The notes below the pieces were generated by a model that worked only from the letters and a program-made list of their open reading frames with translations, did not search any database and was not told the origin of the DNA. The position numbers were made by a program, and so were the translations under genes. DNA of 64,000 nt from an uncultured Tropicimonas sp. (lineage in GTDB: Bacteria; Pseudomonadota; Alphaproteobacteria; Rhodobacterales; Rhodobacteraceae), in NCBI GenBank assembly GCA_947497945.1, contig CANMIP010000031.1, positions 1 through 64,000 of the forward strand. The letters run 5' to 3'. Below are positions 8,114 to 61,751 of the stretch, piece by piece (the stretch's first letter is position 1; every line of letters begins with the position of its first letter).

Positions 8114-8377
8114 ATGAACGACAACGCACGGATCCGGGTTCTTGAAGAACGGCTGAAGCAAGCCAGAGCGCAGGCTTTACGGAACAAGAATAAAGACGAC
8201 ACACGCCGCAGAACTCTATATGGAGCCGCGGCGCTGAAATTCGCGGAAAGCATGCAGGATCCAGGTCGGGATAGGTTTCTACAGGCGCTTCACAAACATT
8301 TCTCGAGACCAACGGACCGGAAGTTTCTTGGGCTATCTTGCGGGGGCTCACCTGCTCATGCTCGATTCACGAACTGA
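8114..8377 (+). CDS. Possible conjugal transfer TraD/MobC-like accessory protein
   Basis: An 87-residue ORF with a good AGGAAAG ribosome binding site 4 bases before its ATG. A charged N-terminal helix (RIRVLEERLKQARAQ) is followed by DDTRRRTLYGAAALKFAES and RPTDRKFLGL. That layout resembles the short TraD/mobilisation accessory proteins beside relaxase genes, which have an RRxxxxGA core and end with a DRxLF-like motif. No relaxase is present here. The final 15 residues look unrelated, so the 3' end may be truncated. Membership in the decayed mobile element is inferred. Confidence 0.4.
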   Translation: MNDNARIRVLEERLKQARAQALRNKNKDDTRRRTLYGAAALKFAESMQDPGRDRFLQALHKHFSRPTDRKFLGLSCGGSPAHARFTN

Positions 8378-8434
8378 CTCCCGAAAACGCACGCGGCAAC
8401 GCATGTGTTCCGCAAAACCTGCCTTCGATAATTA

Positions 8435-8962
8435 TCATTTCTGCGCACCCGGCTGGTTCGCGTCCCCGCCAATTGCACGGACCACCGCCATTGTGGCCAG
8501 GCAAGGCAAGGAAAGCGCTTCGCGCACAAGGTCGACCCGGGCCTCGGTATAGTAATGCTCTTCGTGCAGGATGTTCATCGTGGCAACGAGAGAGCCGCCA
8601 AGGACAATCGGCAGGTTCACGACCGAGCCGCATCCCAGCCCGCCGATCACGACATGATCCGGAAACACCTCCGCGATCTCGGCCAGCGTGTTGGCGACGA
8701 AGCATTCGCCTTGACCATGGACAATCTCGAACCAGGAATTGTGCTGGACCGGCTTGGTGCCGGAGGTGGGATAGCTGACCGGGTCACTTGAATAGTTGCG
8801 ACGGGCGACCCCGGCCGCCATGTCGACACTCATGATCGTGAACAGCTTTGCGCCAACGGTCGCCTGCGTCAGCATGCACAGCGCGTCGAAGGCGGCCTCG
8901 GATGTCGTTGCACCGGCCAGGGCTGCGCGAAAGGTCTCAAGGTGGCGGGAAGTGTCGGTCAT
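8435..8962 (-). CDS. GAF domain-containing protein
   Basis: A 175-residue single-domain soluble protein. TVGAKLFTIMSVD near the start, and GSVVNLPIVLGGSLVATMNI with ALSLPCLATMAVV near the end, fit a free-standing GAF domain, which binds small ligands. No output domain is attached. Its start overlaps the stop of the ABC ATPase gene by four bases (ATGA), making it the last gene of the importer operon. It may act as an intracellular sensor of, or binding protein for, the imported compound. That role is inferred from position only. Confidence 0.75.
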   Translation of the reverse strand: MTDTSRHLETFRAALAGATTSEAAFDALCMLTQATVGAKLFTIMSVDMAAGVARRNYSSDPVSYPTSGTKPVQHNSWFEIVHGQGECFVANTLAEIAEVFPDHVVIGGLGCGSVVNLPIVLGGSLVATMNILHEEHYYTEARVDLVREALSLPCLATMAVVRAIGGDANQPGAQK

Positions 8963-10547: not shown

Positions 10548-11449
10548 GACTTGCCCGCCTGTTTGGGGTCCAGCACGTCGCGCAGCCCATCACCGAGGAA
10601 ACAGAAGCCGAGGGAAACCAGAATGATCGCGAAACCGGGCATCGTGGCCACCCACCACTGATCGAGGATGAACACGCGCCCGCGCGAGATCATGGCGCCC
10701 CATTCCGGCAGCGGCGGTTGCGCGCCAAGGCCGAGGAAGCCGAGCCCCGCCGCGGTCAGGATGATCCCGGCCATGTCGAGCGTGACCCGGACGATCATCG
10801 AGGACATGCAGAGGGGGACGACATGCAGCCCGATGATCCGCGCATCCGAGGCGCCAACCAGCTTGACCGCCGAGATGAACTCGGAGCTGCGGAAGGTGAT
10901 TGTCTCGGCGCGCGCGATGCGGGCATAGGCCGGCCAGGCGGTGATCGCGATGGCGATGATGGCGTTTTCGATGCCCGGCCCGAGCGCGGCGACGAAGGCC
11001 AGCGCGAGGATGAGCTTGGGCATCGACAGGAAGATATCCGTGAAGCCCATCAGCAGCTTGTCGACCCAGCCGCCGAAATACCCGGCAACCGCGCCAATGA
11101 TCAGCCCGAGGGGCGCGGCGATAATCGCCACCAGCGCGACGATCATCAGGGTGATCCGCGCGCCGTAGACCACGCGGGAAAAGATGTCCCGGCCCAGCTC
11201 GTCCGTGCCCATCCAGTTGGCGGAGGATGGCGGCAGGAGCCTGCGGTCGAGCATCTGGCCAACCGGGCTTTCGGGAGCGATCCAGGGCGCGAACACCGCG
11301 GTTGCGATCAGCAGCAGGATGATCAGCGCGCCAAGAACCGCCAGCGGGTTGCGCAGAAGCGCCAGCCCCATGCGATAGAACCGGCCGGCATTGGCCTGCA
11401 TGCGGGAATTGGGGGACTCGTCGAGGAGCCAGTCGCGGGCGCTCATCAT
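10544..11449 (-). CDS. Peptide-type ABC transporter permease (DppC-like)
   Basis: A 301-residue inner-membrane permease. It has an N-terminal helix (LLRNPLAVLGALIILLLIA), the DppC signature WMGTDELGRDIFSRVVYG, several further membrane segments, and a C-terminal RDVLDPK tail. The start at 11449 gives an ATGA overlap with the preceding permease stop; a longer frame upstream is only the shadow of that gene. It forms the channel with the DppB-like partner. Confidence 0.9.
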   Translation of the reverse strand: MMSARDWLLDESPNSRMQANAGRFYRMGLALLRNPLAVLGALIILLLIATAVFAPWIAPESPVGQMLDRRLLPPSSANWMGTDELGRDIFSRVVYGARITLMIVALVAIIAAPLGLIIGAVAGYFGGWVDKLLMGFTDIFLSMPKLILALAFVAALGPGIENAIIAIAITAWPAYARIARAETITFRSSEFISAVKLVGASDARIIGLHVVPLCMSSMIVRVTLDMAGIILTAAGLGFLGLGAQPPLPEWGAMISRGRVFILDQWWVATMPGFAIILVSLGFCFLGDGLRDVLDPKQAGKS

Positions 11450-12489
11450 GTGCTCCTCGGGTCGAGGACGCGGTAGAGCACGTCGGATGTCTTGTTGATG
11501 CCGATGAACACAGCGCCGATGATCAGCGTGGCGCCGAGCACCGCGTTCATATCCGCGTTCAGCAGCGCAACGGTGAGATAATTGCCGATCCCCGGCCAGC
11601 TGAAGACGGTTTCGATCATCACCGACCCTTCCAGCAGCCCGGCATAGGACAGCCCGATGACCGTGATCAGCGGCACCCGGATCGGCGCGAAGGCATGGAC
11701 CCAGATCACCCGCCATTCCGAGACGCCCTTGACCCGCGCGGTGGTGATATATTCCTGCCCCAACTGGTCGAGCATGAAGGACCGCGTCATCCGCGCGATA
11801 TAGGCGAGGCTGAAGAAGCCGAGGATCGCCGCCGGCAGCACGAGATGGCTGAGCGCGTTGCGGAACACCTCCCAGTCGCCGGCAAGGATGCTGTCGACCA
11901 GCAGCAGCCCGGTGACCGGATCGACGACGCCGTCATAGAAGATGTCCACCCGTCCCGGCCCCGAGACCCAGCCGAGGCTGGCATAGAACAGCGCCAGCCC
12001 GACAAGCCCGAGCCAGAATGCCGGGACCGAATAGCCGAGCAGCGCCAGCACGCGAATGCCCTGGTCCAGCCAGCTGCCCTGGTGCGCCGCGGCCGTGACC
12101 CCCATGGGAACACCAAGCCCGACACCGATGATGATGCCGATCGTGGCCATTTCGAGGGTCGCGGGGAACACCCGGGCGAGATCCTCGGCCACGAGGCGGT
12201 TGGTCGAGACCGAGCGCCCGAGATCGCCCTGGACCACGTCGCCGACATAGGAGACGAACTGAAGGATCAACGGTCGGTCCAGCCCCATGGCGATCTTCAT
12301 CGCATCATATTGTTCCTGAGTCGCCCGATCGCCCACGACCGCGAGCACCGGGTCGATCGGAACCACCCTGCCAATAAAAAACGTGATCGCCAGAAGTCCC
12401 AGGAAAGTCAGCGCAATCGTCAGGACGAAGCCCGTCAAGACCCTGAAAAATCGTAATATTCCGTCTCTGCTTCGGAAATCTATCGGCAC
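11446..12489 (-). CDS. Peptide-type ABC transporter permease (DppB-like)
   Basis: A permease of about 347 residues with an N-terminal membrane helix (VLTIALTFLGLLAITFFIG), the DppB-type periplasmic segment around MGLDRPLILQFV, and a VEGSVMIETVFSWPGIGNYL-like C-terminal motif. The GTG at 12489 is preferred. The longest frame starts at 12741, inside the divergent regulator gene, and no ATG lies between. The ribosome binding site is weak, so the exact start is uncertain. It is the first gene of the five-gene operon running to the GAF protein. Confidence 0.8.
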   Translation of the reverse strand: MPIDFRSRDGILRFFRVLTGFVLTIALTFLGLLAITFFIGRVVPIDPVLAVVGDRATQEQYDAMKIAMGLDRPLILQFVSYVGDVVQGDLGRSVSTNRLVAEDLARVFPATLEMATIGIIIGVGLGVPMGVTAAAHQGSWLDQGIRVLALLGYSVPAFWLGLVGLALFYASLGWVSGPGRVDIFYDGVVDPVTGLLLVDSILAGDWEVFRNALSHLVLPAAILGFFSLAYIARMTRSFMLDQLGQEYITTARVKGVSEWRVIWVHAFAPIRVPLITVIGLSYAGLLEGSVMIETVFSWPGIGNYLTVALLNADMNAVLGATLIIGAVFIGINKTSDVLYRVLDPRST

Positions 12490-18252: not shown

Positions 18253-18626
18253 CTATGCTTCTCCGAAAATGCGCGCGTGGATCGGAGACCAGCCTGGTCG
18301 CGGCAGACGAATAGAAATCCGTAGAAACCTAGGAGACCTTACGTAACCTGTCCATCCCCGTTGCCAGAAACGGATCGCCGCCCCCGAAACCTCGGAGCCA
18401 GTCCCGAAACTCTGGCCGCATCTTCAACGCTCCGCAGGCCCGGAAAATCACCAGGTCCAGGCAAGGCATAGACGCGTTTCCGGCGGATCAGGAGGTCCGG
18501 CACGGCTTTCCCGAGACCGCCTGTCAGCGCCATTGCGTCCCCTCCGCAGACGGCTTGTCAATCTGTCCGATGGAGGACGGCGCGCCCCGGCGCTATTGTC
18601 CGCTCAGGACCACCAGAAATTGCAGG
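18253..18626. other. Intergenic region between the MBOAT pseudogene and the P1B ATPase
   Basis: About 370 bases with no convincing gene. Short frames exist, for example 18339-18533 on the minus strand, but lack any recognisable domain or good ribosome binding site. It should hold the divergent promoters of the acetylation module and the metal ATPase gene. No clear operator was found. Confidence 0.5.
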
Positions 18627-20594
18627 ATGAGCCGGATGTTCAGGATCGACGAGGAAGACAGACCGTTGCTCCTGACGGGGCTGACACTGGCCGGGATGCT
18701 CGTCGCCGCGATTGCATATTGGGGCCTGCCGGACGGCTTTGCCTGGATCGGACACGCGGCCCTGCTCGTTGTGTTTGCGGCGGGCGGGGTTCCGGCGGCC
18801 ACGCGTGCGCTCACCGCGCTCTGGAAAGAGGGCGAACTCGATATCGACCTGCTCATGGTCATCGCCGCGGTTGCCGCGGCGCTGGTCGGGGCCGCCTTCG
18901 AGGGCGGCGTCCTGCTGGCCCTGTTCAGCCTCTCGACCACGCTGGAAGAGCGCGCGATGGGCCGCGCGCGCCGCGCCATCGAATCCTTGATGGAATTGCG
19001 ACCGGACACGGCGCTGCGCCGCACCCCGGCCGGCACCGAAGAGGTCGCGCTGGAAGAGCTTGTTCCCGGCGATGTCGTCGTGCTGCGTCCGGGCGCAAGG
19101 GTGCCTGTCGATGGGGAGATCCTCGAAGGCGAGGGCGAGATCGACGAATCCACCATCACCGGCGAGGCGGTCCCGGTGATGAAATCCGCCGGCGACCCGG
19201 TCTTCGAGGCAACCGTGAACCAGAATGGCGTTCTGGCGGTGCGTGTCGACCGGCCGCTGGCCGAGAGCACCGTGGCGCGGATGATCGCGCTCGTCACCGA
19301 AGCGCAGGCCGCCCGCGCTCCCTCGGAGCAGTTTTCGAGCTGGTTCGGACAGCGCTACACGATCTTTGTCCTCTGTTTCTCCTCCCTCGCCTTTCTCGGC
19401 TTCCTGCTGCTCGACAATGGATGGCACGACGCGCTTTACCGTGCCGCGACCCTGCTGGTTGCGGCCAGCCCCTGCGCCATCGTCATCTCGGTGCCGGCCG
19501 CGATCCTGTCGGCGCTCTCCGCCTCCGCGCGCGGCGGGGTGCTGTTCAAGGGAGGGGCGGCGCTGGAAACGCTCGCCTCCGTCTCCTCCTTTGCCTTCGA
19601 CAAGACCGGCACCCTGACCACGGGCCGGCAAGAGCTGACGGGGCTGCGCTGCGAGGGCGACGAGAACGTGTTCCTCGCCCGGCTGGCCGGCATCGAGGCG
19701 CAGTCGGAACACCCGGTCGCGGACGCGATCCGCCGCGCAGCCTCCGAACGCGGTGTCACGCCCATCGAGATGCGCGAGGCCCGGGCCGTGCCGGGCGAGG
19801 GCATTATCGCCCTGGACGGCGAAGGGGTGGTCTGGGCCGGCAATGAACGCCTCGCGAAACGCATGGCGGAGCATGCCGTGCCGATGGAATGCCCCGCCTT
19901 CCTCGCGGCGCTGCGCGACACGCCCCGGACCCTGGTGCTGATGGGGCGCGGCGCGCATGTCCATGGCGTCGCAACGGTGGAAGACCGGCCGCGGGCCTCG
20001 GCGCGGCCGGGTCTCGATGCGCTGCGCGCGCGGGGCATCACGCAACTCGCGATGGTCACCGGCGACAGGGCTGCGGTCGCCGAGCGCGTCGGAGCGGAAC
20101 TGGGAATCGCGCGCGACGCGATCCATGCGGACCTGCGCCCGCAGGACAAGGTGGACATTGTGGCCAGGCTTGCCGAGGGGAACCGTGTGGCCTTCGTCGG
20201 GGACGGGGTGAATGATGCCGCCGCGCTGGCCCGGGCGGATGTCGGCATCGCGATGGGGGCAGCGGGCTCCGAGGTCGCGCTCCAGGCCGCCGATGTGGCG
20301 CTTCTGTCGGATGACCTGAGGCGGCTGGCGGCCGCGCACCGGCTGGCGCAGCGGGCGGCGCGGATCATCCGCCAGAACCTGATTTTCGCCACCGGCGCGA
20401 TGGTGACGCTGGTGCTGGCAGGGCTGTTCTTCCACCTGCCGCTTCCTCTCGCGGTGATCGGCCATGAGGGCGGCACGGTCCTCGTTGTCCTCAACGGGCT
20501 GCGCCTGCTGGCCGACCCGATCCGGCTGGCACAGGATCGGGTCGCCGCGGATGCGCCGGACGGCCCGGCCTTTGCGGCGGATCGCCACGTTTGA
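18627..20594 (+). CDS. P1B-4-type heavy-metal translocating P-type ATPase
   Basis: An inner-membrane metal exporter of about 655 residues without an N-terminal metal-binding domain. It has the TGE loop (ITGEAVPV), the SPC metal site in helix 6 (residues 281-283), the phosphorylation site DKTGTLT (Asp325), VGDGVNDAAALARA, and HEGGT in the last helix pair (from His613). SPC plus HEGGT marks the P1B-4 (CoaT/CtpD/PfeT) group, which exports Co, Fe, Zn or Cd. The start is uncertain: ATGs at 18570, 18627 and 18636 are all possible. A ZIP carrier gene follows 78 bp downstream. Confidence 0.85.
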   Translation: MSRMFRIDEEDRPLLLTGLTLAGMLVAAIAYWGLPDGFAWIGHAALLVVFAAGGVPAATRALTALWKEGELDIDLLMVIAAVAAALVGAAFEGGVLLALFSLSTTLEERAMGRARRAIESLMELRPDTALRRTPAGTEEVALEELVPGDVVVLRPGARVPVDGEILEGEGEIDESTITGEAVPVMKSAGDPVFEATVNQNGVLAVRVDRPLAESTVARMIALVTEAQAARAPSEQFSSWFGQRYTIFVLCFSSLAFLGFLLLDNGWHDALYRAATLLVAASPCAIVISVPAAILSALSASARGGVLFKGGAALETLASVSSFAFDKTGTLTTGRQELTGLRCEGDENVFLARLAGIEAQSEHPVADAIRRAASERGVTPIEMREARAVPGEGIIALDGEGVVWAGNERLAKRMAEHAVPMECPAFLAALRDTPRTLVLMGRGAHVHGVATVEDRPRASARPGLDALRARGITQLAMVTGDRAAVAERVGAELGIARDAIHADLRPQDKVDIVARLAEGNRVAFVGDGVNDAAALARADVGIAMGAAGSEVALQAADVALLSDDLRRLAAAHRLAQRAARIIRQNLIFATGAMVTLVLAGLFFHLPLPLAVIGHEGGTVLVVLNGLRLLADPIRLAQDRVAADAPDGPAFAADRHV

Positions 20595-20672
20595 ATCCGC
20601 CGCCGGCTCCGTCATCCCGGGCCCACGTCAGAAATGCGGTCAGTCCTCTGATCCAACTCCCAGGAAATTGGC

Positions 20673-21446
20673 ATGTCCCCTGTTCTTCTCGGCTTTCTTG
20701 GAAGCCTCGTCGCCGGCCTGATGACCGCCGTCGGCGCGCTTCCGGTGCTTGTCCACCGGATGCCCGGGCGCGGTTTCCGGGACATGTCACTCGGCTTCGC
20801 CGCCGGCGTGATGCTCGCGGCCTCGTTCTTCTCGCTGATCATTCCCGCGCTCGACGCGGCCGGGGAGCGTCTCGATGGCGCCGCCATGCCGGCCTTCATC
20901 GTCTGTATCGGAATCCTGATCGGGATGGCGGCCGTCGCCTATCTCAACGAGAAGCTGCCGCATGAGCATTTCAAGCTCGGACATGAGGGGCCGGAAAGCG
21001 CCTCGCTCCGCCGGGTCTGGCTCTTCATCTTCGCGATCACCATCCACAATTTCCCTGAAGGCCTGGCCGTTGGCGTCGCCTTCGGCGCGGGCGGCCTCGA
21101 AGGCGGGCTGCCGCTGGCGATCGGGATCGGGCTGCAGAACGCGCCCGAAGGGCTGGCAGTCGCCGTCTCCCTGCTCGGCGAGGGCTATAACAGGTACCGC
21201 GCCTGGGGGATCGCCGCCCTGACCGGGCTTGTCGAACCCATCGGCGGGCTGATCGGCGCCGGCGCCATCAGCTATTCCGAACCCTTCCTGCCCTGGGGGC
21301 TGGCCTTTGCCGCTGGGGCGATGATCTACGTGATCAGCCACGAGATCATTCCCGAAACCCATCGCAGCGGGCATCAGAACAAGGCCACGCTGGGCCTCGC
21401 CATCGGCTTGGTCGTGATGCTGTTCCTCGATGTGACGCTGGGCTGA
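20673..21446 (+). CDS. ZIP-family metal transporter
   Basis: A 257-residue membrane protein with about eight helices. Helix 4 carries HNFPEGLAVGVAFG, helix 5 carries NAPEGLAVAVSLL, and a late helix has ISHEIIPETH, together the binuclear metal site of ZIP carriers. The cytoplasmic loop after helix 3 is His-poor (EKLPHEHFKLGHEG). It is likely to bring zinc, iron or another divalent metal into the cytoplasm. It is downstream of a P1B-4 exporter in the same direction, so import and export may be co-regulated, or the pair may handle different metals. Confidence 0.85.
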   Translation: MSPVLLGFLGSLVAGLMTAVGALPVLVHRMPGRGFRDMSLGFAAGVMLAASFFSLIIPALDAAGERLDGAAMPAFIVCIGILIGMAAVAYLNEKLPHEHFKLGHEGPESASLRRVWLFIFAITIHNFPEGLAVGVAFGAGGLEGGLPLAIGIGLQNAPEGLAVAVSLLGEGYNRYRAWGIAALTGLVEPIGGLIGAGAISYSEPFLPWGLAFAAGAMIYVISHEIIPETHRSGHQNKATLGLAIGLVVMLFLDVTLG

Positions 21447-21515: not shown

Positions 21516-22718
21516 TTATACGCTCTGGCGCCGCCGGAAAAGCGGCTGGACGAGACGCCGCCAACTCAGCGCCAAGCCGGTATAGACCATGAACACGCTG
21601 GCCAGCGAGGCCAGCCCGGCGATGGTCTGTCCGATCAACCCGTAGAACTCGCCGGTATGGACAAACCGCATCCACATCCGCGCCTTCGTGGCCGGTGAGC
21701 GGTCGGAAAACGTCGAAACAGCCGTCACCTCGCCGCTCTGCTGCGAGATCGTGAGCGTCTCCTGCCGGGTCAGTTGCTTGCCGGTGCCTGTGTCGACCCT
21801 GACGCTCACATCCGCGGCATGCGCGTCCTGCGGCAGAGTCAGGGTGATCCAGTTCCAGCCGGCATCATGCCCGGCCGCCGTCTCAAGGATCGCCTGCAGG
21901 CCGACGCCGGCCGCGCCGGTGGCGCCCCCCGTTGCTTGTTCGGTACCGTGGTCGTCATGATCGCCCTCACGCTGCCCATGTCCGCGCCCGCGCCCGAGAC
22001 CGCCGCCGAAGCCGCCGCCGGGGCCATCGGAACGGCGCATCTCTTCGCCATAGGCCGTGAAGAGCATCTTGCCGGCCCAGTCATAGGAGAGCACGACGCC
22101 GGAGAGAATGATCACGAAGAGCGGCAGCGCCGCCCAGGCCGCAAAGACATGATGCCAGGCGAAGTCGCGCGCCTTGGCGTTGGGATAGTCGCGGCGAAAC
22201 AGCAGCCGGGTCTTCAGCATGCCCCATTTCCACAGCCTGGGCAGCCAGAGATAGGCGCCCGAGAGCAGCAGGAAGCCGAAGACGAGATTGGCCGCGCCGG
22301 TGATCGCGCCGCCGGTCTCGTTCGGTCCGGAGAGGGACAGCCAGCGATGCAAGGTCGTGACCGTACCGAAAAAGCCTTCCAGCCCCGCCGTCCCCTCGCC
22401 AAGAACCGCGCCGCTATAGGGATCGAGGAAGATCTTCCCCTCCCGGCCGGAGGTGGCCTTGACCGCGGCGGCCGGGTCGTTTTCGAAGGTCAGCGCGGTT
22501 GCCTTGCCATCGGTCTCCGCGCGCGCGATCGCGGCCAGCTCATCCGCCGGCAGCGGCAGGGTCCCGGGTGCGCTCACATCGTAACGGTTCTCGGTCCACT
22601 GCGTGATCTGCGCCTCATAGGTCAACAGAACGCCCGTGACGGCAAGCATCAGGACAACAAGGCCTGCGGCCAGGCCAGCGACGAGATGGCTCCAGAACAG
22701 GATCTTTCGGAAGGGCAT
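21516..22718 (-). CDS. PepSY-associated transmembrane protein
   Basis: A 400-residue inner-membrane protein. The first helix (LVVLMLAVTGVLLTYEAQI) is followed by a periplasmic PepSY-like part with WTENRYDV and IFLDPYSGAVLG. Then come LHRWLSL, a helix with a WLPRLWKW loop, AWHHVFAAWAALPLFVIILSG, a low-complexity Gly/His/Asp insert near residues 250-270, and the last pair (MWMRFVHTGEFYGLIGQTIA). This architecture is typical of PepSY_TM proteins found near metal and siderophore uptake genes, some proposed as reductases. Paired His residues in helices could bind haem. Confidence 0.8.
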   Translation of the reverse strand: MPFRKILFWSHLVAGLAAGLVVLMLAVTGVLLTYEAQITQWTENRYDVSAPGTLPLPADELAAIARAETDGKATALTFENDPAAAVKATSGREGKIFLDPYSGAVLGEGTAGLEGFFGTVTTLHRWLSLSGPNETGGAITGAANLVFGFLLLSGAYLWLPRLWKWGMLKTRLLFRRDYPNAKARDFAWHHVFAAWAALPLFVIILSGVVLSYDWAGKMLFTAYGEEMRRSDGPGGGFGGGLGRGRGHGQREGDHDDHGTEQATGGATGAAGVGLQAILETAAGHDAGWNWITLTLPQDAHAADVSVRVDTGTGKQLTRQETLTISQQSGEVTAVSTFSDRSPATKARMWMRFVHTGEFYGLIGQTIAGLASLASVFMVYTGLALSWRRLVQPLFRRRQSV

Positions 22719-22880: not shown

Positions 22881-23882
22881 CTAAAGCTCGGCTTCCAAGC
22901 AAACAGGAACGAAACCGGCCGCAGCAGTGCTGTCGGCAACGACCTTGCAGGCAAGGATGTCACCGGTGCGCGTATCGACGATCCAGAGCGCACCGTCTTC
23001 GGTCGGGTAGGCCGCGAAGGGAACGCCCTGCTGGCCGCCGCCTTTTCCGCCGCGTTGTCCCTTGCCCTGCTGGCGGTCCATCGTCATCCCGGACGAACCG
23101 CGCGCGCCCTGGCCGCGACCCTGCTGGTATCCGGGCTGCTGGCTGCCTTGCTGGTCCATCATCCGGCCCTGGCCACCCATGCCCTGGCCGCCCTTGCCTT
23201 GTCCGTGGCCCTGGCCATAGCCTTGGCCTTGGCTGTAACCTTGGCCCTGGCTGTAGCCCTGACCTTGACCTTGACCTTGACCTTGGCCTTTGCCTTGTCC
23301 GCGGCCTTGCCCGGCGCCGCGCCCCTGGCCCTGCTGCATGCCGGGCTGCTGGTCCTGCATCTGCGCCATCCGGCCCTGGCCCTGGCCTTGACCCTGGCCT
23401 CTGCCCTGCCCACGGCCCTGCATGTTGCCCTGCGCGCCCATTCCGGCCCCGAAATCCTGAACGGTGACAGTGCCGTTGCCATCCTTGTCCATGACCCCCA
23501 TCCAGACCACCGAGGCGGCAAGGAACTCTTCGAGCGAGACGCGCCCGTCGCTGTCGGCATCGCTCGCGGCGAGGGACAACGCCTGCTCCGCCCGTCCCGC
23601 GCCATTCCCGCGATCGGCGGGGCGCTGCATCGACTCGGTGCGGGCCTGATCATAGACGCCGAATTCCTCGGCGCTCAGCGCCCCGTCCTCGTTGTCGTCG
23701 AAGGCAGCGAAGATATCGGCGCGCCGCTCATTGAGCTCCTCGAGGGTGATCGTGCCATCCTCGTCGGCGTCCCAGTTGGTCAGGAAATTGACACCGGGTT
23801 CGAATGGTTCGTCGGTTTGCGCAAGGGCCGGTCCGGCCACGATTGCGGACAGGGCGACTGCGGTAAGAAGGATCGGTTTCAT
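22881..23882 (-). CDS. Exported EF-hand protein with long Gly-Gln-rich repeat region
   Basis: A 333-residue secreted protein. A signal peptide ends at ALA near residue 21. Four canonical EF-hand loops lie at 38-49 (DADEDGTITLEE), 62-73, 108-119 and 132-143 (DKDGNGTVTVQD). Residues about 147-290 are a low-complexity tract rich in GQG triplets with interspersed Arg, Lys, Met and Tyr. A short C-terminal domain has two cysteines (DILACKVV, VPVCLEAEL). AAGGGA precedes the ATG; the longer frame upstream of 23882 is noise. Calcium binding is expected. The repeat tract may act as a flexible or surface-binding linker. Confidence 0.8.
   Translation of the reverse strand: MKPILLTAVALSAIVAGPALAQTDEPFEPGVNFLTNWDADEDGTITLEELNERRADIFAAFDDNEDGALSAEEFGVYDQARTESMQRPADRGNGAGRAEQALSLAASDADSDGRVSLEEFLAASVVWMGVMDKDGNGTVTVQDFGAGMGAQGNMQGRGQGRGQGQGQGQGRMAQMQDQQPGMQQGQGRGAGQGRGQGKGQGQGQGQGQGYSQGQGYSQGQGYGQGHGQGKGGQGMGGQGRMMDQQGSQQPGYQQGRGQGARGSSGMTMDRQQGKGQRGGKGGGQQGVPFAAYPTEDGALWIVDTRTGDILACKVVADSTAAAGFVPVCLEAEL
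23027..23444 (-). repeat. Degenerate GQG-coding repeat tract
   Basis: The coding sequence for the Gly-Gln-rich part of the EF-hand protein is an array of near-identical 6- to 9-base units; ccttga and ccttgg recur on the plus strand near 23220-23300. Because of the repeats, the antisense strand also stays open for over 700 codons, which is an artefact. Confidence 0.75.
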
Positions 23883-24267
23883 CGGGAAGTCCCTTCGGTT
23901 CCTGTTTGCTATACAGAAGATACGCAATAGGCCCGGAGTTCCGTCGCCCGCCGCACAAAAAAACTTTCGAAGCGCCGCAGGCTGGCCCGCAGGGGCCGGA
24001 GCAAGGCCCCCTCTCCCGGACATCAGCAGCCGATGCGCATCCATGTCGCCTTGCGCTGCGCAAGCGCGGGCAGCACGCGCCCGGGACGAAGGAGCCGCCT
24101 TGGCCCGGTTCCTGTCCCGACGATGCGCTGCCCGCCCTGTCCCGGAGCCGCGAAAAGAGGCAAAAACTGACGCGTGCCGCACCCCGGACGTCGTGTCTCA
24201 TTGATCGGCGCGCGGCACGGTGTCTCCATGACCGCACAGGAAGTGACCCGGGGGGAGCGACATCGGA
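23883..24267. other. Divergent intergenic region in the metal island
   Basis: About 385 bases between the EF-hand gene and the DUF2946-like gene, which point away from each other. Frames in this stretch have no recognisable domains. It should contain both promoters. At its right end CGGGGGGAGCG is the ribosome binding site of the plus-strand gene. No palindrome matching a known metalloregulator was identified by eye. Confidence 0.5.
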
Positions 24268-24675
24268 ATGTGGAGGAGGACGCGACATGGCCCGGCCGCC
24301 CCCGGACAGGCGCTGCTGTCTGTGCTGGCGCTGTTGGCGATGCTCGTCCAGGTCCTGTTCACGGCAGACCACCTTGGCGCTTCGGCCGTCCGGGCCTTCG
24401 GATCGGAGGCAGGCCTGTCCGGCTTCGGGATCATGGAGATCTGCGCCGGGGACGGGGTCGAGATCATCGGTTCCGGGGACGGCTCGGGCGATGATTGCCC
24501 GGTCTGCGCCAGCGCCGCCGTTGCCGATTTCGGCGAGGCCGGGACAGCCGCGCCCCCTGCCCCGTCCGTCACCCTGCTCGCCCATGGCTGGGCCCCCCGG
24601 CGGGAAGACCATGCGACCGCCCTGCGCCCTTCCGGGACCAAGCCGATACGCGCGCCGCCCGTTGTCCTGACCTGA
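24268..24675 (+). CDS. DUF2946-like small exported or membrane protein
   Basis: A 135-residue protein with one N-terminal hydrophobic segment (LLSVLALLAMLVQVLFTADH), a DDCPVCASAA motif in the middle and a Pro-rich C-terminus. That layout, with a single helix ending in a His, a CPxC centre and a basic Pro-rich tail, fits DUF2946 proteins, which often sit beside TonB copper receptors. GGGGAGCG precedes the ATG. It begins the plus-strand run leading into the NosL-like genes, with a 149-bp gap. A copper-related role is inferred from family habit and neighbours. Confidence 0.6.
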   Translation: MWRRTRHGPAAPGQALLSVLALLAMLVQVLFTADHLGASAVRAFGSEAGLSGFGIMEICAGDGVEIIGSGDGSGDDCPVCASAAVADFGEAGTAAPPAPSVTLLAHGWAPRREDHATALRPSGTKPIRAPPVVLT

Positions 24676-24824
24676 GCGCATTGGGGGCAGTCTCCGCTGC
24701 GACCTGACCCGGTTCACGGACAGGCCCCTGTCTCATGCACGCCTTCCACATGCATCCGCCCCCAACGGGCCGGACCCGCATGGCAGGGCGTCTTCCCATG
24801 CATCAAAAAGCAGGACACAGATAC

Positions 24825-25427
24825 ATGAAACGTCGCGATTTCATCCTCACGACATCCGCTGGCGCGCTCCTTGCCGCCGGAACCGCCTCCGCGCAGACAA
24901 TGATGAAGACCCCCTGGGACTGGACCGACGAGAACGGCCTGGCCCGGTTCCTGAAGCAAGACCCGGACCCGCTGGAGAACGAGTTCGAGAAGTATCCCCG
25001 CTGCCCCTATTGCGGCATGATGCGCAAGCAGTGGAGCCATTCCCGCCACCTCATCCATTACGATGACGATACGGTCGATGGCACATGTTCGATCCATTGC
25101 GCCGCGATCAGCCTGTCCCTCAACATGGATCGGGGGCCGCGTGTCATCTATGCCGGCGATGCCGGCGCCGAGGGCGAGGTGAAGCCGCTCGCCGACAGCG
25201 CGGCGATGTCCTACGTGATCAACCCCGCGCAGATGGGAACGATGACCAGACAGTCGAAATGGGCCTATTCCGACCCGGCAGCGGCCAGGGCCGCAGCGGC
25301 GGAAGGCGAAGGGGCCATGATCGTCGGATTCGACGACGCCCTGCGCGCCGCCTTCGCCTCGATGGCGGAAGACACGATCGCGATCCGCAAGCGCCGGGCC
25401 GAGCGCCGGGCGCGGGCCGCCCAGTAG
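24825..25427 (+). CDS. NosL-like copper-binding protein with twin-arginine signal
   Basis: A 200-residue exported protein. The N-terminus MKRRDFILTTSAGALLAAGT looks like a twin-arginine signal. The NosL metal-site motif CPYCGM is at residues 60-65, with a second Cys pair TCSIHCAA at 88-92. The C-terminal tail is rich in Arg and Ala. NosL proteins are periplasmic copper chaperones in nitrous-oxide reductase clusters, but no nosZ, nosD or nosR is in this window. The ATG at 24825 is chosen because the twin-arginine signal starts there; 24798 is an alternative. It is followed by a second NosL-like gene. Confidence 0.75.
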   Translation: MKRRDFILTTSAGALLAAGTASAQTMMKTPWDWTDENGLARFLKQDPDPLENEFEKYPRCPYCGMMRKQWSHSRHLIHYDDDTVDGTCSIHCAAISLSLNMDRGPRVIYAGDAGAEGEVKPLADSAAMSYVINPAQMGTMTRQSKWAYSDPAAARAAAAEGEGAMIVGFDDALRAAFASMAEDTIAIRKRRAERRARAAQ

Positions 25428-25494
25428 CGCCGATCGTTCCGGCCTGTCCGGCGCCCCGCTGGACAGGCCGCATCCCTTTCGAAACGGACCTGTC

Positions 25495-26028
25495 ATGTGC
25501 ACCCATTCCCACGATCCCGCCCGCCGGCGCCTGCTGGCCTTCCTCCCGGCCGCGACGCTCCTTACCCTGGCCGGACGCCGCCCGGCCCTGGCCGACGCCG
25601 CCCCTGTCGACCTGCCGGCACCGGCGCCCCGCGACACCTGCCCTGTCTGCGGAATGTTCGTGGCCCAATATCCGGAATGGGTCGCCACGATCCTCTGGCA
25701 GGATGGCGCGGCGGTCCATTTCGACGGCGCGAAGGACTTCTTCAAATACCTCCACGATCTCGGGAAATACGCCCCCGGCCGCCGCGCCGACCAGATCGTG
25801 GGCATGGGGGTGACCGAGTATTACGGCTTGCGGCTGGTCGATGCCCGGGCGGCCGAATATGTCATCGGATCGGATGTCTACGGCCCGATGGGGCACGAGC
25901 TGATCCCGCTCGCAACCGCGCTGGACGCAACCGATTTTCTAAACGATCACAAGGGCAAGGCGCGCGTATTCTTCGACGACGTCACCGCCGAGATGCTGGC
26001 CGCGCTGGACGCAGGGTCGATCAAATGA
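25495..26028 (+). CDS. NosL-family copper chaperone-like protein
   Basis: A 177-residue protein with an RRR-containing signal peptide (residues 9-33) and the NosL motif CPVCGM at 49-54. It is followed by IYF/AVHFDGAKDFFKYLHD-like sequence and YVIGSDVYGPMGHELIPL, the conserved NosL second half. The N-terminus also holds CTHSH, which might bind metal before processing. It overlaps the next gene by four bases (ATGA). It differs enough from the preceding NosL-like protein to suggest two distinct chaperones, for instance one passing copper to the other or to the FtsX-type permease. Confidence 0.85.
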   Translation: MCTHSHDPARRRLLAFLPAATLLTLAGRRPALADAAPVDLPAPAPRDTCPVCGMFVAQYPEWVATILWQDGAAVHFDGAKDFFKYLHDLGKYAPGRRADQIVGMGVTEYYGLRLVDARAAEYVIGSDVYGPMGHELIPLATALDATDFLNDHKGKARVFFDDVTAEMLAALDAGSIK

Positions 26029-26357
26029 CCCGGCGCAGCCCCCTCGTCTTCGGGCTCATCGGCGCCGGTTGCGCCCTGCTCGCGCTGGAAGCGATGCACA
26101 GCAAATTGATGACGCCTGCCGGGGCCGCGCGCATGGCCCGCTCGGCCGAGCTCGTGCGGCGCGCCGGGCTGACCGACCTTGCTCTCTTCACCGAGGCCCG
26201 CTTTGCCCGCAACCCCGCCCTGGCAGACCTGCACACCGCCTTCCAGGACAGCCCGCTCTCCTTCGAACATTTCCCCTCCGGCACGTTCGCCCCCCGTCCC
26301 GCCGCCGGCTTCGGACAGGGGACGCTGCGCTTTGGCACAGAGGAGGACGCCCGGTGA
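26025..26357 (+). CDS. Small membrane-anchored protein of unknown function in the NosL/ABC operon
   Basis: A 110-residue protein with one N-terminal hydrophobic segment (LVFGLIGAGCALLALEAM) and a soluble, probably periplasmic, remainder. The rest contains SKLMTPAGAARMARSAELVR and ends FGQGTLRFGTEEDAR. It has a single Cys, in the anchor. Start and stop overlap the NosL-like gene (ATGA) and the permease gene (GTGA), which supports it as a real coding sequence. I do not recognise the family. Position suggests a periplasmic adaptor between the chaperones and the permease. Confidence 0.7.
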   Translation: MTRRSPLVFGLIGAGCALLALEAMHSKLMTPAGAARMARSAELVRRAGLTDLALFTEARFARNPALADLHTAFQDSPLSFEHFPSGTFAPRPAAGFGQGTLRFGTEEDAR

Positions 26358-27496
26358 CACCCTGGGTCCGCCGCCAGCAGGCGCTGGCCGACTACACGCT
26401 CGCCGCGATGGCCCGCCGCAGGGTCAAGAATATCGGCCTGCTGCTGATCTACGCGCTGGTGATCTTCGTCATCGCCTCCGCCACGCTCTTTTCCACCGCC
26501 CTTCGGCACGAGGCCGAGATCGTCCTTGCCGAGGCCCCGGAACTCATTGTCCAGAATCTCGTGATGGGGCGGCATGACATGATCTCCGCCGAGATCATCG
26601 AGGAGCTGGAAGCCATCCGCGGCGTGGGTGGCGTAACGGGCCGGCTCTGGGGCTATTTCTACGATCGGGTCAATGGCGCCAATTACACGCTGATGGTGCC
26701 GCTGGACCCGAAAATGGTGCCGCCAGCGGGACAGGCGCTCTTCGGCGAGGCCCTGCCGCGGACGCGCGGTCTCGGCTGGGACACCGCCCCGCTCTTTCTC
26801 AGCCGGTATCCGGGCGACCTGTTCCGCCTCGACCCCGCCGGACGGCTGAGCCATGAAAGCGCCCTCGTCAGCGCCGACCTTATCCTGCTCGGGGAGGAGG
26901 ATTTCCGCGCCTTCTTCGATCTGCCGCCAGCGGTCTACACCGATATCGCGGTCTCGATCCGCAACAGCCGCGAGATCGACACCATCGTCGCCAAGGCCGG
27001 CAAGCTGCTTCCGAATGCGCGGCTGGTCACCCGCGACGAGATCTCCCGCACCTATCAGAAACTGTTCTACTGGCGGGAGGGGATCATGGTCGCGATGGCC
27101 GGGGCGTCGGTGCTGGCCTTCGCCATCTTCGCGGCCGAGAAAGCCTCCGGCCTCTCGGCGGAGGAGACCCGGGAGATCGGCATCCTGAAGGCCATCGGCT
27201 GGGACACGCGAGACGTGATCGCGATGAAGCTCTGGGAAGGCGGGCTGATTTCGCTCGGGGCCTTCCTGTTCGGGACCGGGCTCGCCTATCTGCATGTCTT
27301 TGCCTTCGATGCCGCGCTCTTCGCTTCCGTGCTCAAGGGATGGTCGGTGATCTACCCGGATTTCCGGCTGACGCCGATGATCGACGGCGTGCAGCTGACC
27401 GCGCTCTTCTTCCTCACGGTCCTTCCCTACACGGCCGCCACGATCGTGCCGATCTGGCGGGCGGCGACGGCCGATCCCGACCAGGTCATGCGATAG
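26354..27496 (+). CDS. FtsX/MacB-type ABC transporter permease
   Basis: A 380-residue inner-membrane protein in FtsX-like layout: an N-terminal helix (NIGLLLIYALVIFVIASATLF), a periplasmic domain of about 220 residues, then three helices near the end (MAGASVLAFAIFAAE, GGLISLGAFLFGTGLAYLHV, LTALFFLTVLPYTAATIVPI). EEIREIGILKAIGW-like sequence (EETREIGILKAIGW) is the cytoplasmic coupling motif of this class. The start is GTG, overlapping the previous stop. Such permeases work in lipoprotein release, peptide efflux or mechanotransmission. Here they would act with the ATPase 9 bp downstream and NosL-like partners, probably not as a classic solute channel. Confidence 0.85.
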   Translation: MTPWVRRQQALADYTLAAMARRRVKNIGLLLIYALVIFVIASATLFSTALRHEAEIVLAEAPELIVQNLVMGRHDMISAEIIEELEAIRGVGGVTGRLWGYFYDRVNGANYTLMVPLDPKMVPPAGQALFGEALPRTRGLGWDTAPLFLSRYPGDLFRLDPAGRLSHESALVSADLILLGEEDFRAFFDLPPAVYTDIAVSIRNSREIDTIVAKAGKLLPNARLVTRDEISRTYQKLFYWREGIMVAMAGASVLAFAIFAAEKASGLSAEETREIGILKAIGWDTRDVIAMKLWEGGLISLGAFLFGTGLAYLHVFAFDAALFASVLKGWSVIYPDFRLTPMIDGVQLTALFFLTVLPYTAATIVPIWRAATADPDQVMR

Positions 27497-27505
27497 GAGG
27501 CGACG

Positions 27506-28186
27506 ATGATTTCCCTGCACGCGGTAAGGAAACTCTACAATGAAGGCCGTCCCAGCGAGGTCACGGCCCTCGGCGGCATCGATCTCGAGATCGCGCGAGA
27601 CGCGCTGACCGTCTTCAGGGGGCCGTCCGGATCGGGCAAGACGACGCTGCTGTCGGTGATCTCCTGCATGGCCCGGCCAAGCTCGGGACGGGTCTTCGTC
27701 GATGGCCGGAATGTCTCCGGCCTGCCGGAGAGCTTCCTGACGCAGGAGCGCCGCCGCACCTTCGGCTTCGTCTTTCAGCGGTTCAACCTGATCCGCGGCC
27801 TGACCGTGCTGGAAAACGTGCTCCTGCCCGCCGCCCCGCTTGGCCGCGCCCCGCGCGACGACGCGGAGCGCGCGACCGCCCGGCTGGAGGCGCTCGGGCT
27901 GGGGCCGAAGGCGCATGTGCTGGTCGAGCAGCTCTCCGGCGGCGAGGCGCAGCGGACCGCGATTGCCCGCGCCCTGATCAACGACCCGCCGGTGCTGATC
28001 GCGGACGAGCCGACGGCCAATCTCGACACCGAGCTGGCGATGCGCTTTCTCGACATCGTCGCCGGCCTGCGGGCCGAGGGGCGGACGGTCGTGATGACCA
28101 GCCACGATCCGCGGATCTGGCAGGCCGCGCTGGTGGACCGGGTTGTCGCCCTGCGCGACGGCCGGCTGGACGAGGAACAGCCATGA
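27506..28186 (+). CDS. LolD/MacB-type ABC transporter ATP-binding protein
   Basis: A 226-residue cytoplasmic ATPase. Walker A GPSGSGKTT is at residues 39-47, the Q-loop is FGFVFQRFNLIRGLTVLENV, the signature is QLSGGEAQRTAIARALI, and Walker B is LIADEPTANLD. The RFNLI Q-loop and ANLD D-loop are typical of the LolD/MacB group that pairs with FtsX-type permeases. It starts nine bases after the permease stop and overlaps the next gene by four bases. Together they form the energised part of the NosL-associated system. Confidence 0.9.
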   Translation: MISLHAVRKLYNEGRPSEVTALGGIDLEIARDALTVFRGPSGSGKTTLLSVISCMARPSSGRVFVDGRNVSGLPESFLTQERRRTFGFVFQRFNLIRGLTVLENVLLPAAPLGRAPRDDAERATARLEALGLGPKAHVLVEQLSGGEAQRTAIARALINDPPVLIADEPTANLDTELAMRFLDIVAGLRAEGRTVVMTSHDPRIWQAALVDRVVALRDGRLDEEQP

Positions 28187-29181
28187 TCCTCCAGGTGCCG
28201 ATCCTCGCACTGCTCCTGGGCTCGGCCCTGGCCAGCGCCGTGGCGCTCTGGGCGGCGTGTTTTGCCATCCGGGTGCTGCGTGGCTGGGACATCACGAATG
28301 GCAGCGGCCAGCAGCTCGCGCTCGAACGCGCGACCCAGCTTGTCTCCACCCTGTTCGGCCTCGTCATGCTGATCGAGATCGCGGCCCTGTTCCTGTTCGT
28401 TTTCAACGCCGACCGCATGGCCACGCTCTTCGTCGGCGCAATGTGCGCGGTGGGCACGTTCAACGCCAATGCATGGGGCTTTCCGGCCCTCACGCTCAAG
28501 ATCGCGGTGTTCTTCGCGGCAGCACTCTGGCTGCGGCTCGACCGGCTGGATCGGGCGGGCCATGACTACCCGCTGACCCGGGTGAAATATGCCGCCATCC
28601 TCGGGATCGCCCCGCTCCTGCTCGCCAATGCAGCAGCGGAGCTGGCCTATTTCCTCAACCTGAAGACGGATGTCATCACCTCCTGCTGCTCGAAGCTCTA
28701 CACGCCGGCCAATGCGGGGCTGGCCGCCGAGATGACCGGGCTCGCGCCCGGACGCGCGCTCTGGCTGCTGGCGATCTGTGGCCTCGCGGTGGCGCTGGCC
28801 GGCGGCGCGGTGCTGCTGCGGGGACGCGGCGCGCGGCTGCTGGCGCTGGCCGGGATCGCCTTCTTCCTTGCCGCGCTGACCGCCATCGTTTCGGTGATCT
28901 CGCTCTATGTCTACGATCACCCCAACCATCATTGCCCCTTCTGCCTGTTGAAGCGGGATTACGGGTATTTCGGCTACGCGCTCTACATCCCGCTCTTCGC
29001 GGGCACGGCCCTTGCCGCAGGCGTCGGGATGATGCGGGCCCTGCCCCGCAGCGACAGCCTCGCCGCGATCACGCCGCTCGCGATCCGCCGGCACACCCGT
29101 CGCGCCCTTGCCGCCTTCGCCCTCTTCGGCGCCGCGGTCCTCTGGGCAATAGCGTCCTCGCAGCTCATCCTGTTCGGCTAG
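28183..29181 (+). CDS. Polytopic membrane protein with vicinal Cys pair and HHCPFC motif
   Basis: A 332-residue inner-membrane protein with about eight hydrophobic segments. Two loops hold conspicuous cysteines: a vicinal pair at residues 168-169 (SCCSKLY) and a CPFC at 251-254 preceded by two His (HPNHHCPFCLLK). These could form a metal site or a redox relay like those of disulfide-exchange membrane proteins. I cannot assign a family. It is the last gene of the NosL/FtsX/ABC operon and is joined to the ATPase by an ATGA overlap, so it very likely belongs to the same machine. Confidence 0.75.
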   Translation: MILQVPILALLLGSALASAVALWAACFAIRVLRGWDITNGSGQQLALERATQLVSTLFGLVMLIEIAALFLFVFNADRMATLFVGAMCAVGTFNANAWGFPALTLKIAVFFAAALWLRLDRLDRAGHDYPLTRVKYAAILGIAPLLLANAAAELAYFLNLKTDVITSCCSKLYTPANAGLAAEMTGLAPGRALWLLAICGLAVALAGGAVLLRGRGARLLALAGIAFFLAALTAIVSVISLYVYDHPNHHCPFCLLKRDYGYFGYALYIPLFAGTALAAGVGMMRALPRSDSLAAITPLAIRRHTRRALAAFALFGAAVLWAIASSQLILFG

Positions 29182-29259: not shown

Positions 29260-29898
29260 CTAGTCGAGGCGGAGATCGCCAAGCCGGGCGCGGATGGAGG
29301 AGTCGGTGTCATCGCTGTCGGAGGAGACTGCGAGCCCGACCAGGACAGTTTTCGGACTGCCGAAGGCGCGCTGGAAATCCGCCTCCAGATTTACGCTTTC
29401 CTGGAAGCTTCCGGTGCCCGCCGGCCGGCGGATGATGGTCTTCCCGCGCTTGCCGAGATAGGGCGAGGGCAGGATCTCGTTGCGGGCGTGATCCCCGCCC
29501 CAGACATACATGAGCACGCGGGCGTCGCGCGACCTGAGCAACTGGCGGACATTGGCATCGCGGCTGGCCTCGGCGCGGTCGGCCGGCAGGAACAGGAAAT
29601 AGAGCGAGAGGTTCCGGTCGTCCCCGCCCTTGCGGGTAAGTTGCGTGCCCGGCACGCTTTGCTGCACTGACCAGTCCCAGCTCGCCCCTGTCGCCGCGCC
29701 TTCGGAGGCCGGCAACCGGGTCCAGATCAGGGAGACGGACCCGTCCGAGCGCACGTCCACCCCCCGGGAGGACTGGATCCAGCTATTGCTGGACAGGCGG
29801 GGAAATTCCTGTTCTGCCCATCCCCCGAAAGGCACCGACTGGGCGGCCGAGGCTGCAAGGGACAGTGTCAGGGCAAGGGCCGTAATCGCCTTCATCAT
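29260..29898 (-). CDS. DUF3047-family exported protein
   Basis: A 212-residue secreted protein. The signal peptide MMKAITALALTLSLAASAAQ is followed by a beta-rich domain: ASWDWSVQQSVPGTQLTRKG, then GGDDRNLSLYFLF, VLMYVWGGDH, and late VGLAVSSDSDDTDSSIRA. The W-x-W / GDD / YxW / DSDxT pattern is the DUF3047 signature. GGAGAGAA precedes the ATG at 29898; a longer frame starting at 30009 is not needed. No function is established for the family. It is convergent with the NosL/ABC operon and probably transcribed alone. Confidence 0.8.
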   Translation of the reverse strand: MMKAITALALTLSLAASAAQSVPFGGWAEQEFPRLSSNSWIQSSRGVDVRSDGSVSLIWTRLPASEGAATGASWDWSVQQSVPGTQLTRKGGDDRNLSLYFLFLPADRAEASRDANVRQLLRSRDARVLMYVWGGDHARNEILPSPYLGKRGKTIIRRPAGTGSFQESVNLEADFQRAFGSPKTVLVGLAVSSDSDDTDSSIRARLGDLRLD

Positions 29899-61706: not shown

Positions 61707-61751
61707 CGCTTTGTCGCCTGAAATGTCCCGTTTAGAAAAAGCCCGTTGGCC

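Follow-up and report, generated by a model that had tools for sequence, protein, structure and literature searches.

A conserved seven-gene NosL/FtsX-type ABC module in Tropicimonas and its relatives as a candidate copper-regulated supply line for nitrous oxide reductase

What might two copper chaperones of the NosL family do beside an FtsX-type membrane machine, at a locus that encodes no nitrous oxide reductase (NosZ)? The question is raised by a stretch of 64,000 nucleotides from an uncultured Tropicimonas sp. of the family Rhodobacteraceae (GenBank assembly GCA_947497945.1, contig CANMIP010000031.1, positions 1 to 64,000 of the forward strand; hereafter the window), in which seven consecutive genes encode a DUF2946-like leader protein, two NosL proteins (NosL1 and NosL2), a small anchored protein, an FtsX-type permease, an ATP-binding cassette (ABC) ATPase, and a polytopic membrane protein with conserved cysteines and histidines. 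A preliminary description made from the DNA letters had proposed a dedicated membrane machine for periplasmic copper. Here, we have followed these genes across genomes and compared them with known systems. Our reading, held with moderate confidence, is that they form a copper-regulated operon for periplasmic Cu(I) handling, most likely an auxiliary supply line for NosZ.

The seven-gene set is a genuine, conserved module. One pattern-prefiltered scan of a named-genome collection with the polytopic protein, which reached near relatives only, gave 11 loci, all placed in Rhodobacteraceae/Rhodobacterales by title or genus. The six-gene order NosL1-NosL2-small protein-FtsX permease-ATPase-polytopic protein, for which the preliminary description had proposed a search across genomes, was present in all 11 at 49-88% identity, far beyond chance. 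The leader gene heads the module in 10 of the 10 loci whose contig extends there (L017 starts inside NosL1; L and G numbers denote loci and genomes), and split or cut frames affect one or two genes in L012, L020, and L021. In an all-against-all comparison, non-module open reading frame (ORF) families of at least 100 amino acids were common to at most 3 of the 11 loci, and the larger clusters overlap the module and represent module genes or shadow frames.

Searches of three genome samples, each of which includes the window's own genome, matched the polytopic protein in 2 of 142 genomes of the class, 6 of 295 of the family, and, with a profile, 7 of 398 of the phylum. The second class-sample match (G028, 51 residues, E 9e-5) was treated as spurious, and one family-sample match (G153) is a broken remnant of the polytopic gene that was removed from the module counts. 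Within the phylum sample, the NosL1 profile matched six of the seven genomes with the polytopic protein and none of the 391 without it (Fisher test, 1.3e-12); the seventh carrier, G435, has a divergent locus in which NosL2 is present and NosL1 was not found. Since NosL1 co-occurs with the polytopic protein in this way, both behave as parts of one machine. No plasmid-borne copy was detected at E≤1e-5 when 72,556 plasmid records were searched by tblastn with the FtsX protein. The remnant of G153 (L038, positions 8146-8929) is accompanied by no other module gene, and nosZ lies elsewhere in that genome; perhaps this nosZ-bearing relative has lost the module. The module is apparently undescribed so far: among the matches listed in the open literature, with subscription journals mostly outside, no description of NosL together with an FtsX-type ABC machine was found, and the excerpts of PMC4326196 and PMC13068155, which hold both NosL and FtsX, do not describe this combination.

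The layout of the module in the window is given in Table 1. From NosL2 onward, three junctions are overlaps of four nucleotides (26025-26028, 26354-26357, and 28183-28186), and a gap of nine nucleotides (27497-27505) separates the FtsX gene from the ATPase gene. These four tight junctions match the preliminary description exactly, and its seven genes, with their positions and motifs, were all verified by the ORF list and a motif check. The NosL1 frame has a further in-frame start open upstream, at 24735; the start at 24825 yields the twin-arginine N-terminus MKRRDFILTTSAG.

Table 1. The module in the window, with positions counted from the first nucleotide of the window (TM, transmembrane segment).
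Feature	Position	Strand	Basis or remark
Candidate copper-responsive upstream ORF of CruR type (DUF2946), gene 1 of 7	24268..24675	+	ORF list, motifs
Leader-NosL1 intergenic region, 149 nucleotides	24676..24824	+	sequence
NosL1 with twin-arginine signal, CPYCGM, and second conserved CSxxC; own NosL subfamily	24825..25427	+	Pfam, profiles
NosL2 with CPVCGM (CXXCXM type) and N-terminal signal	25495..26028	+	Pfam, profiles
Small protein with one N-terminal TM (residues 6-24)	26025..26357	+	alignment
FtsX/MacB-type permease with about four TMs and a large domain after TM 1	26354..27496	+	GTG start
ABC ATPase of the FtsE/MacB/LolD/DevA group	27506..28186	+	Pfam, NCBIfam
Polytopic membrane protein with SCCSKLY and HHCPFC	28183..29181	+	alignment

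The first gene suggests how the module may be controlled. The preliminary description listed it as DUF2946-like and missed its resemblance to a regulatory leader. The DUF2946 family includes CruR of Bordetella pertussis, a nascent peptide that senses copper through a CxxC motif and stalls its ribosome by means of a C-terminal RAPP; in the presence of copper the stall is released, and Rho terminates transcription before the next gene (PMC9426467; cited articles are represented here and below by excerpts). The leader in the window has one TM or export segment (residues 15-33), CPVC at residues 77-80 (24496-24507), and RAPP at residues 128-131 (24649-24660). Among 15 leader loci (the window, L011-L016, L018-L021, L028, and L034-L036), the spacing between the second Cys and the Arg of RAPP amounts to 48 residues in all 14 loci other than L028, where it is 46, RGPP replaces RAPP in L014 and L016, and one to seven residues trail the motif; the gap between leader and NosL1 is 92-285 nucleotides in 14 of them, the NosL1 start of L012 not being placeable. 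In CruR of B. pertussis, the two cysteines are Cys90 and Cys93, RAPP occupies residues 139-142, and the intergenic region measures 162 bp; the corresponding distance reckoned from these residue numbers is 46 (PMC9426467).

The leader in the window scores 12.9 bits against the DUF2946 model, below the cut-off of 23.7 bits; a match at E≤1 is found in 8 of 11 aligned leader copies including that of the window (best E 6.5e-7), and the copy of L028 passes the cut-off with 25.8 bits. No conserved sequence or RNA element emerged from an alignment of the leader-NosL1 intergenic region of 10 loci, and the leader does not stand out from early NosL1 in the C-richness required of a Rho site (C/G of 1.3-1.9 in 78-nucleotide windows starting at 24502-24606, with early NosL1 also reaching 1.7). 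From these motifs and their spacing, it is very likely that the first gene is a copper-sensing leader, and by its CruR signature the module is probably under copper control. A related type, CutF of Rhodobacter capsulatus, has the opposite sense and acts via a stem-loop; CutF-like genes were reported ahead of nosZ/nosR (PMC9973294), and NosL has already been listed among CutF-like gene neighbors (PMC8456105). We favor the CruR mode because of the RAPP motif, the CxxC (not CxxxC) motif, and the long gap; the direction of regulation is inferred from the analogy. Elsewhere in the window's genome, a small exported-looking Cys-rich ORF (L063, 5297-5776), with GPP near its C-terminus and no Pfam match, lies directly before a nosR-like gene (by eye) and looks CutF-like.

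Both chaperones belong to the NosL family (PF05573), with scores of 36 bits for NosL1 and 92.1 bits for NosL2 at a cut-off of 24, and alignments show CXXCXM in both (CAYCGM in L034) and the additional CSxxC in NosL1. CXM is the Cu(I) motif of NosL, and CXXCXM is the form found in clade II NosL (PMC6530538); the module proteins bear this clade II-type motif even in genomes with clade I NosZ. On their own profiles, intact copies score 275-353 bits (NosL1) and 191-293 bits (NosL2) and broken or contig-cut pieces 123-245 bits, compared to at most 25 and 50 bits, respectively, for the NosL proteins of nos clusters, a gap that is inflated by the presence of several module proteins in the profile seed sets but is wide. 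Among solved structures, the NosL2 profile finds NosL chains (7OSF, chain H, and others; E 2.6e-8), 7OSF being the NosDFYL complex. The lipobox of canonical NosL was seen in neither protein when read by eye, no predictor having been run. It is predicted that NosL1 and NosL2 are exported proteins that bind Cu(I) as chaperones. A P. denitrificans nosL mutant showed no reduction of nitrous oxide (N2O) under copper limitation and normal reduction when copper was sufficient (PMC6530538).

The remaining four genes encode what may be a machine of the type VII ABC superfamily and its partners. The permease, a single gene without fused ATPase, matches FtsX of Pfam with 37.4 bits (cut-off 25.5), and its predicted model, with a mean predicted local distance difference test score (pLDDT) of 75.2, matches LolE, MacB, HrtB, and YtrF, with 48 Protein Data Bank (PDB) chains at E≤0.001; the sequence search agrees weakly (YtrF, E 8.5e-4). 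A four-TM permease, an FtsX domain, and a MacB-like predicted fold are features of the type VII superfamily, in which ATP use drives motion of periplasmic domains. The ATPase matches ABC_tran with 108 bits (cut-off 25) and is below the cut-off in each of its best 25 NCBIfam models. Membership in FtsEX was rejected on the FtsE model score, which is below cut-off, and MacAB-TolC was rejected on that of MacB, likewise too low, and because ATPase and permease are separate genes and the MacA adaptor is absent from the module. The small protein has a conserved stretch (LTDxALFTEAR...FQDxP...HFPSG) and no significant Pfam match, with one sub-threshold match. For the polytopic protein, no Pfam family was found at E≤1, the sole NCBIfam match is a chance one (E 0.29), and a PDB search with its model stayed above E 0.001 throughout (best 0.18). 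Its motifs GAMC (residues 85-88), ITSCC (Cys 168-169), and HHCPF (residues 249-253) are kept, as GAMC, IT[ST]CC, and HHCPF, in eight diverse aligned copies, with ITTCC in L033 and the last Cys of HHCPFC replaced by Asp in L033 and L034. The model has a mean pLDDT of 73.5, falling below 50 in the GAMC and CC loops and to about 50-55 at HHCPF, and because of these low values we do not claim that the Cys and His residues meet in space.

Which enzyme could such a module serve? It is tied to N2O reduction statistically, not physically. Contig C10 of the window's genome carries nosZ (1139.6 bits), nosD (477 bits), and a second NosL gene (139.8 bits) whose motif, read by eye, is CXM with a nearby His (FCQMNVSEH), near the clade I form (PMC6530538). 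The phrase "without nitrous-oxide reductase genes" in the preliminary description, like its remark that no nosZ or nosR is in view, is therefore true of the locus (tblastn) and does not extend to the genome. More generally, nosZ was found in 16 of 20 distinct module genomes, against backgrounds of 76 of 295 sampled genomes for the family and 60 of 398 for the phylum; the separation of the module from nosZ thus holds physically and not by genome. Seven of the module-genome nosZ genes are over the cut-off of the twin-arginine translocation (TAT) type (clade I), and nine are of the Sec type (clade II), four of the nine being confirmed by TIGR04246 and five resting on the same match pattern. In the phylum sample, six of seven module carriers have nosZ (Fisher test, 5.8e-5; 3.3e-4 minus the window genome, and 1.9e-3 minus also one of two congeners), and in the family sample the module is present in three of four clade II nosZ genomes (9e-6).

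These counts combine genomes over the TIGR04244 cut-off (72 of 295 and 54 of 398) with long matches below it (G144, G157, G205, and G365 in the family sample; G770, G526, G683, G536, G543, and G517 in the phylum sample), and fragmentary or short nosZ matches (G260, G188, G494, G465, and G676, for instance) were left uncounted. G809 is the same genome as G157 and was counted once (5 kb of L019 recur unchanged in L037, and the nosZ coordinates are the same), and the module-genome count leaves out L011.

Several observations weigh against NosZ as the client of a copper-regulated operon. A tblastn search of 23 stretches including the window (L038 holds the module remnant only, and L037 duplicates L019) detected no nosZ of either clade, nosD, nosR-like gene, or nosY, and the nosF matches in them are generic ABC ATPases; linkage to nosZ, which the preliminary description had named as evidence against its own proposal, was accordingly not found as physical linkage. 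The association in the family sample is weak (p = 0.017 with the window genome, 0.052 without), and all module-nosZ tests ignore phylogeny. By TIGR04244, the clade III model not having been run, G394, G435, G808, and G810 have no nosZ; G394 is rated 100% complete, yet has no nosZ match, G808 and G810 are metagenome-assembled, and the module of G435 is divergent. Conversely, 72 of the 76 family-sample nosZ genomes, one of them clade II (G205), are without the module, and NosZ can therefore do without it. Each of the 12 nos clusters retrieved has nosD, and therefore the module is no replacement for NosDFY. A pattern scan, which also missed the L034 copy, did not show the RAPP leader in L029-L033. 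Finally, co-regulation by FNR/NnrR is not generally supported: among 18 upstream regions, those of L019 and L028 alone have a site with one mismatch, and sites as good occur in 5% and 3% of random windows, respectively.

The genome lists likewise led to rejection of a NosDFY replacement: nosD is present in 18 of 22 genome entries, including G205 (no module) and G153 (remnant only), and is absent from G394, G435, G808, and G810. Of the 12 nos clusters, nine contain a NosL by profile and a tenth, L059, by motif, and L058 and L060 yielded none. NirK was rejected as a client, as nirK is over the cut-off in only 2 of 21 genome entries (G804 and G808; G153 is among the 21). As a separate observation, L058 (5448-12452, G683) has two nosZ genes in near tandem, the first confirmed as Sec type, around response-regulator and histidine-kinase-like genes (by eye). 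Taking the evidence on both sides together, we give NosZ an even chance of being the main client of the module.

Further context is provided by distant relatives. Outside the class, a core of small protein, FtsX permease, ATPase, and polytopic protein is followed further downstream by NosL1-NosL2 (L030, L031, and L032), at about 15 kb in G683. In the most divergent module, L033, an ORF without Pfam match (11105-11926) lies between NosL2 and the small protein. Between or beside these genes, L029 and L031 encode a P1B ATPase of the copper type (556 and 560 bits on TIGR01511, whose cut-off is 397) and a DsbD_2 protein, the latter recognized by motif only in L030 and L032. L031 also has a ResA-like thioredoxin that, at 117 bits, stays below the ResA cut-off of 170; one was seen by eye in L032. 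The proposal of a membrane module dedicated to handling copper in the periplasm gains support from the leader, the two NosL subfamilies, and the Cys and His residues of the polytopic protein, as well as from the copper-type P-type ATPases beside two distant relatives, and we are confident that the module handles a metal that these features point to as copper.

The same evidence can be read as a general periplasmic copper supply for copper-poor, oxygen-limited life, feeding heme-copper oxidases or several cuproenzymes, with NosZ sharing only the niches. Pairs of a P1B ATPase and a DsbD_2 protein, as in L029 and L031, occur in oxidase assembly loci. G394 has the whole module with no nosZ or nosD match, and the module is missing from most family-sample genomes with nosZ. 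The CruR operon of B. pertussis serves heme-copper oxidases (PMC13038864). However, the enrichment of nosZ in two samples argues for a closer tie, and among copper chaperones NosL goes with NosZ, whereas PCuAC and Sco go with oxidases (PMC7558416), so that we regard a general supply as possible, albeit doubtful.

Import of copper across the inner membrane, by analogy with CruR-headed TonB-coupled copper acquisition operons, is considerably less plausible. Genes for CruR homologues are often found ahead of those for TonB receptors and PepSY_TM proteins (PMC9426467). G683 has a TonB-dependent receptor gene in the interval that separates the core from NosL1-NosL2, accompanied by TonB and ExbB/ExbD-like genes that were identified by eye, but in the 11 named loci flanking genes, a receptor included, recur in at most 3. 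Moreover, we know of no characterized type VII ABC system that moves solutes across the inner membrane. Least plausible is a LolCDE-like machine for lipoprotein or membrane extraction with NosL neighbors by chance, for although the best fold matches of the predicted permease model are LolE/LolC and the ATPase reaches 165 bits on the LolD model, the family models stay below cut-off (LolCE 21.6 of 362 bits, LolD 165 of 308 bits), one FtsX gene stands in place of two different permeases, neither NosL has a lipobox by eye, a CruR-type leader is present, and NosL1 co-occurs with the polytopic protein; of the LolCDE homology that the preliminary description had set against its own proposal, kinship within the LolCDE/MacB superfamily at fold level is what stood.

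If the module is an auxiliary copper supply line for NosZ, it may work as follows. Copper bound by the CxxC of the nascent leader would control ribosome stalling at RAPP and, through it, expression of the operon; by the CruR precedent, expression would occur when copper is scarce. FtsX permease and ATPase would form a type VII ABC machine in which cytoplasmic ATP moves a periplasmic domain with no pumping of solute, GAMC, CC, and HHC of the polytopic protein may constitute a Cu(I) site in the membrane, and a periplasmic partner may be found in the small anchored protein. Copper would pass to the polytopic protein, ATP-driven motion would release it to NosL1/NosL2, and these would hand it to apo-NosZ or to its NosD/NosL machinery. 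ATP-driven release of Cu(I) is the simplest reading because a type VII machine stands beside NosL chaperones and a thiol- and histidine-bearing membrane protein; we propose this mechanotransmission relay, and especially its order of transfer, only tentatively.

Several other genes of the window are of note. A Zn/Cd-type P1B ATPase (ATPase-IB2_Cd, 517 bits, cut-off 313.5) directly followed by a ZIP/ZupT-like zinc transporter (18624-21446) lies on the same strand about 3 kb upstream, and this pair is not beside the module in the 11 named loci. A PepSY_TM gene (21516-22718, reverse strand) is located 1.5 kb upstream of the module, with an EF-hand gene in between; it, too, is not beside the module in the 11 named loci, and a PepSY_TM protein, CrpH, belongs to the CruR operon of B. 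pertussis (PMC13038864). The EF-hand protein (22881-24182, reverse strand) has long GQGQG-rich repeats, its true start is probably well inside the ORF, and its 44 bits against the NCBIfam lanmodulin model are well under the cut-off of 135. Convergent to the module end is a DUF3047 protein (29260-29898, reverse strand, 99.7 bits). At the end of the window (63428-64000), a protein starting with a GGFGGFGG repeat follows a SARP-like ORF (61746-63395; by eye).

Compared to known systems, the module resembles the NosL-NosDFY assembly machine in placing a NosL-family Cu(I) chaperone beside an inner-membrane ABC machine, but it has no NosD, its permease is of the FtsX/MacB type rather than NosY, it has two NosL proteins without visible lipid anchor and an extra polytopic Cys/His protein, and it is unlinked to nosZ in a genome that also has nosZ, nosD, and another nosL. 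With the cruR-bfrG/crtA-bp2921/crpH operon of B. pertussis it shares a DUF2946 leader in first place, the CxxC and RAPP motifs at near-identical spacing, and a long intergenic region, whereas a TonB receptor and a PepSY_TM protein follow there and NosL, FtsX, ABC, and polytopic proteins here. LolCDE, MacAB-TolC, HrtBA, and FtsEX, all of type VII, are similar in predicted permease fold and ATPase family group; in contrast to them, the module has a single, unfused permease, has no MacA, TolC, LolC/E pair, or EnvC partner among its genes, scores below cut-off on the LolCE, LolD, FtsE, and MacB models, and is set among copper chaperones. A Parageobacillus NosDFYL locus without NosZ, as given in the excerpt of PMC13068155, is similar in having NosL and an ABC machine with nosZ not local, but it is reported to encode NosDFY, and the module differs from it in permease and partners.

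The bacteria that carry NosZ use it to destroy N2O, and under copper shortage the enzyme fails (PMC6530538). There is some chance, which we would not put high, that the module is a second, unlinked, ATP-powered route of NosZ metallation, switched on by a copper-sensing nascent peptide and serving both NosZ clades, in which the first metal-moving type VII ABC machine would load NosL chaperones from an undescribed family of Cu(I)-site membrane proteins. Probably copper-regulated and present in only some NosZ bearers, the module is a concrete candidate, open to deletion, for why some denitrifiers might still reduce N2O at low copper. If this is true, type VII ABC machines would be extended to metal handling, and an as yet unnamed membrane protein family would receive its first function.

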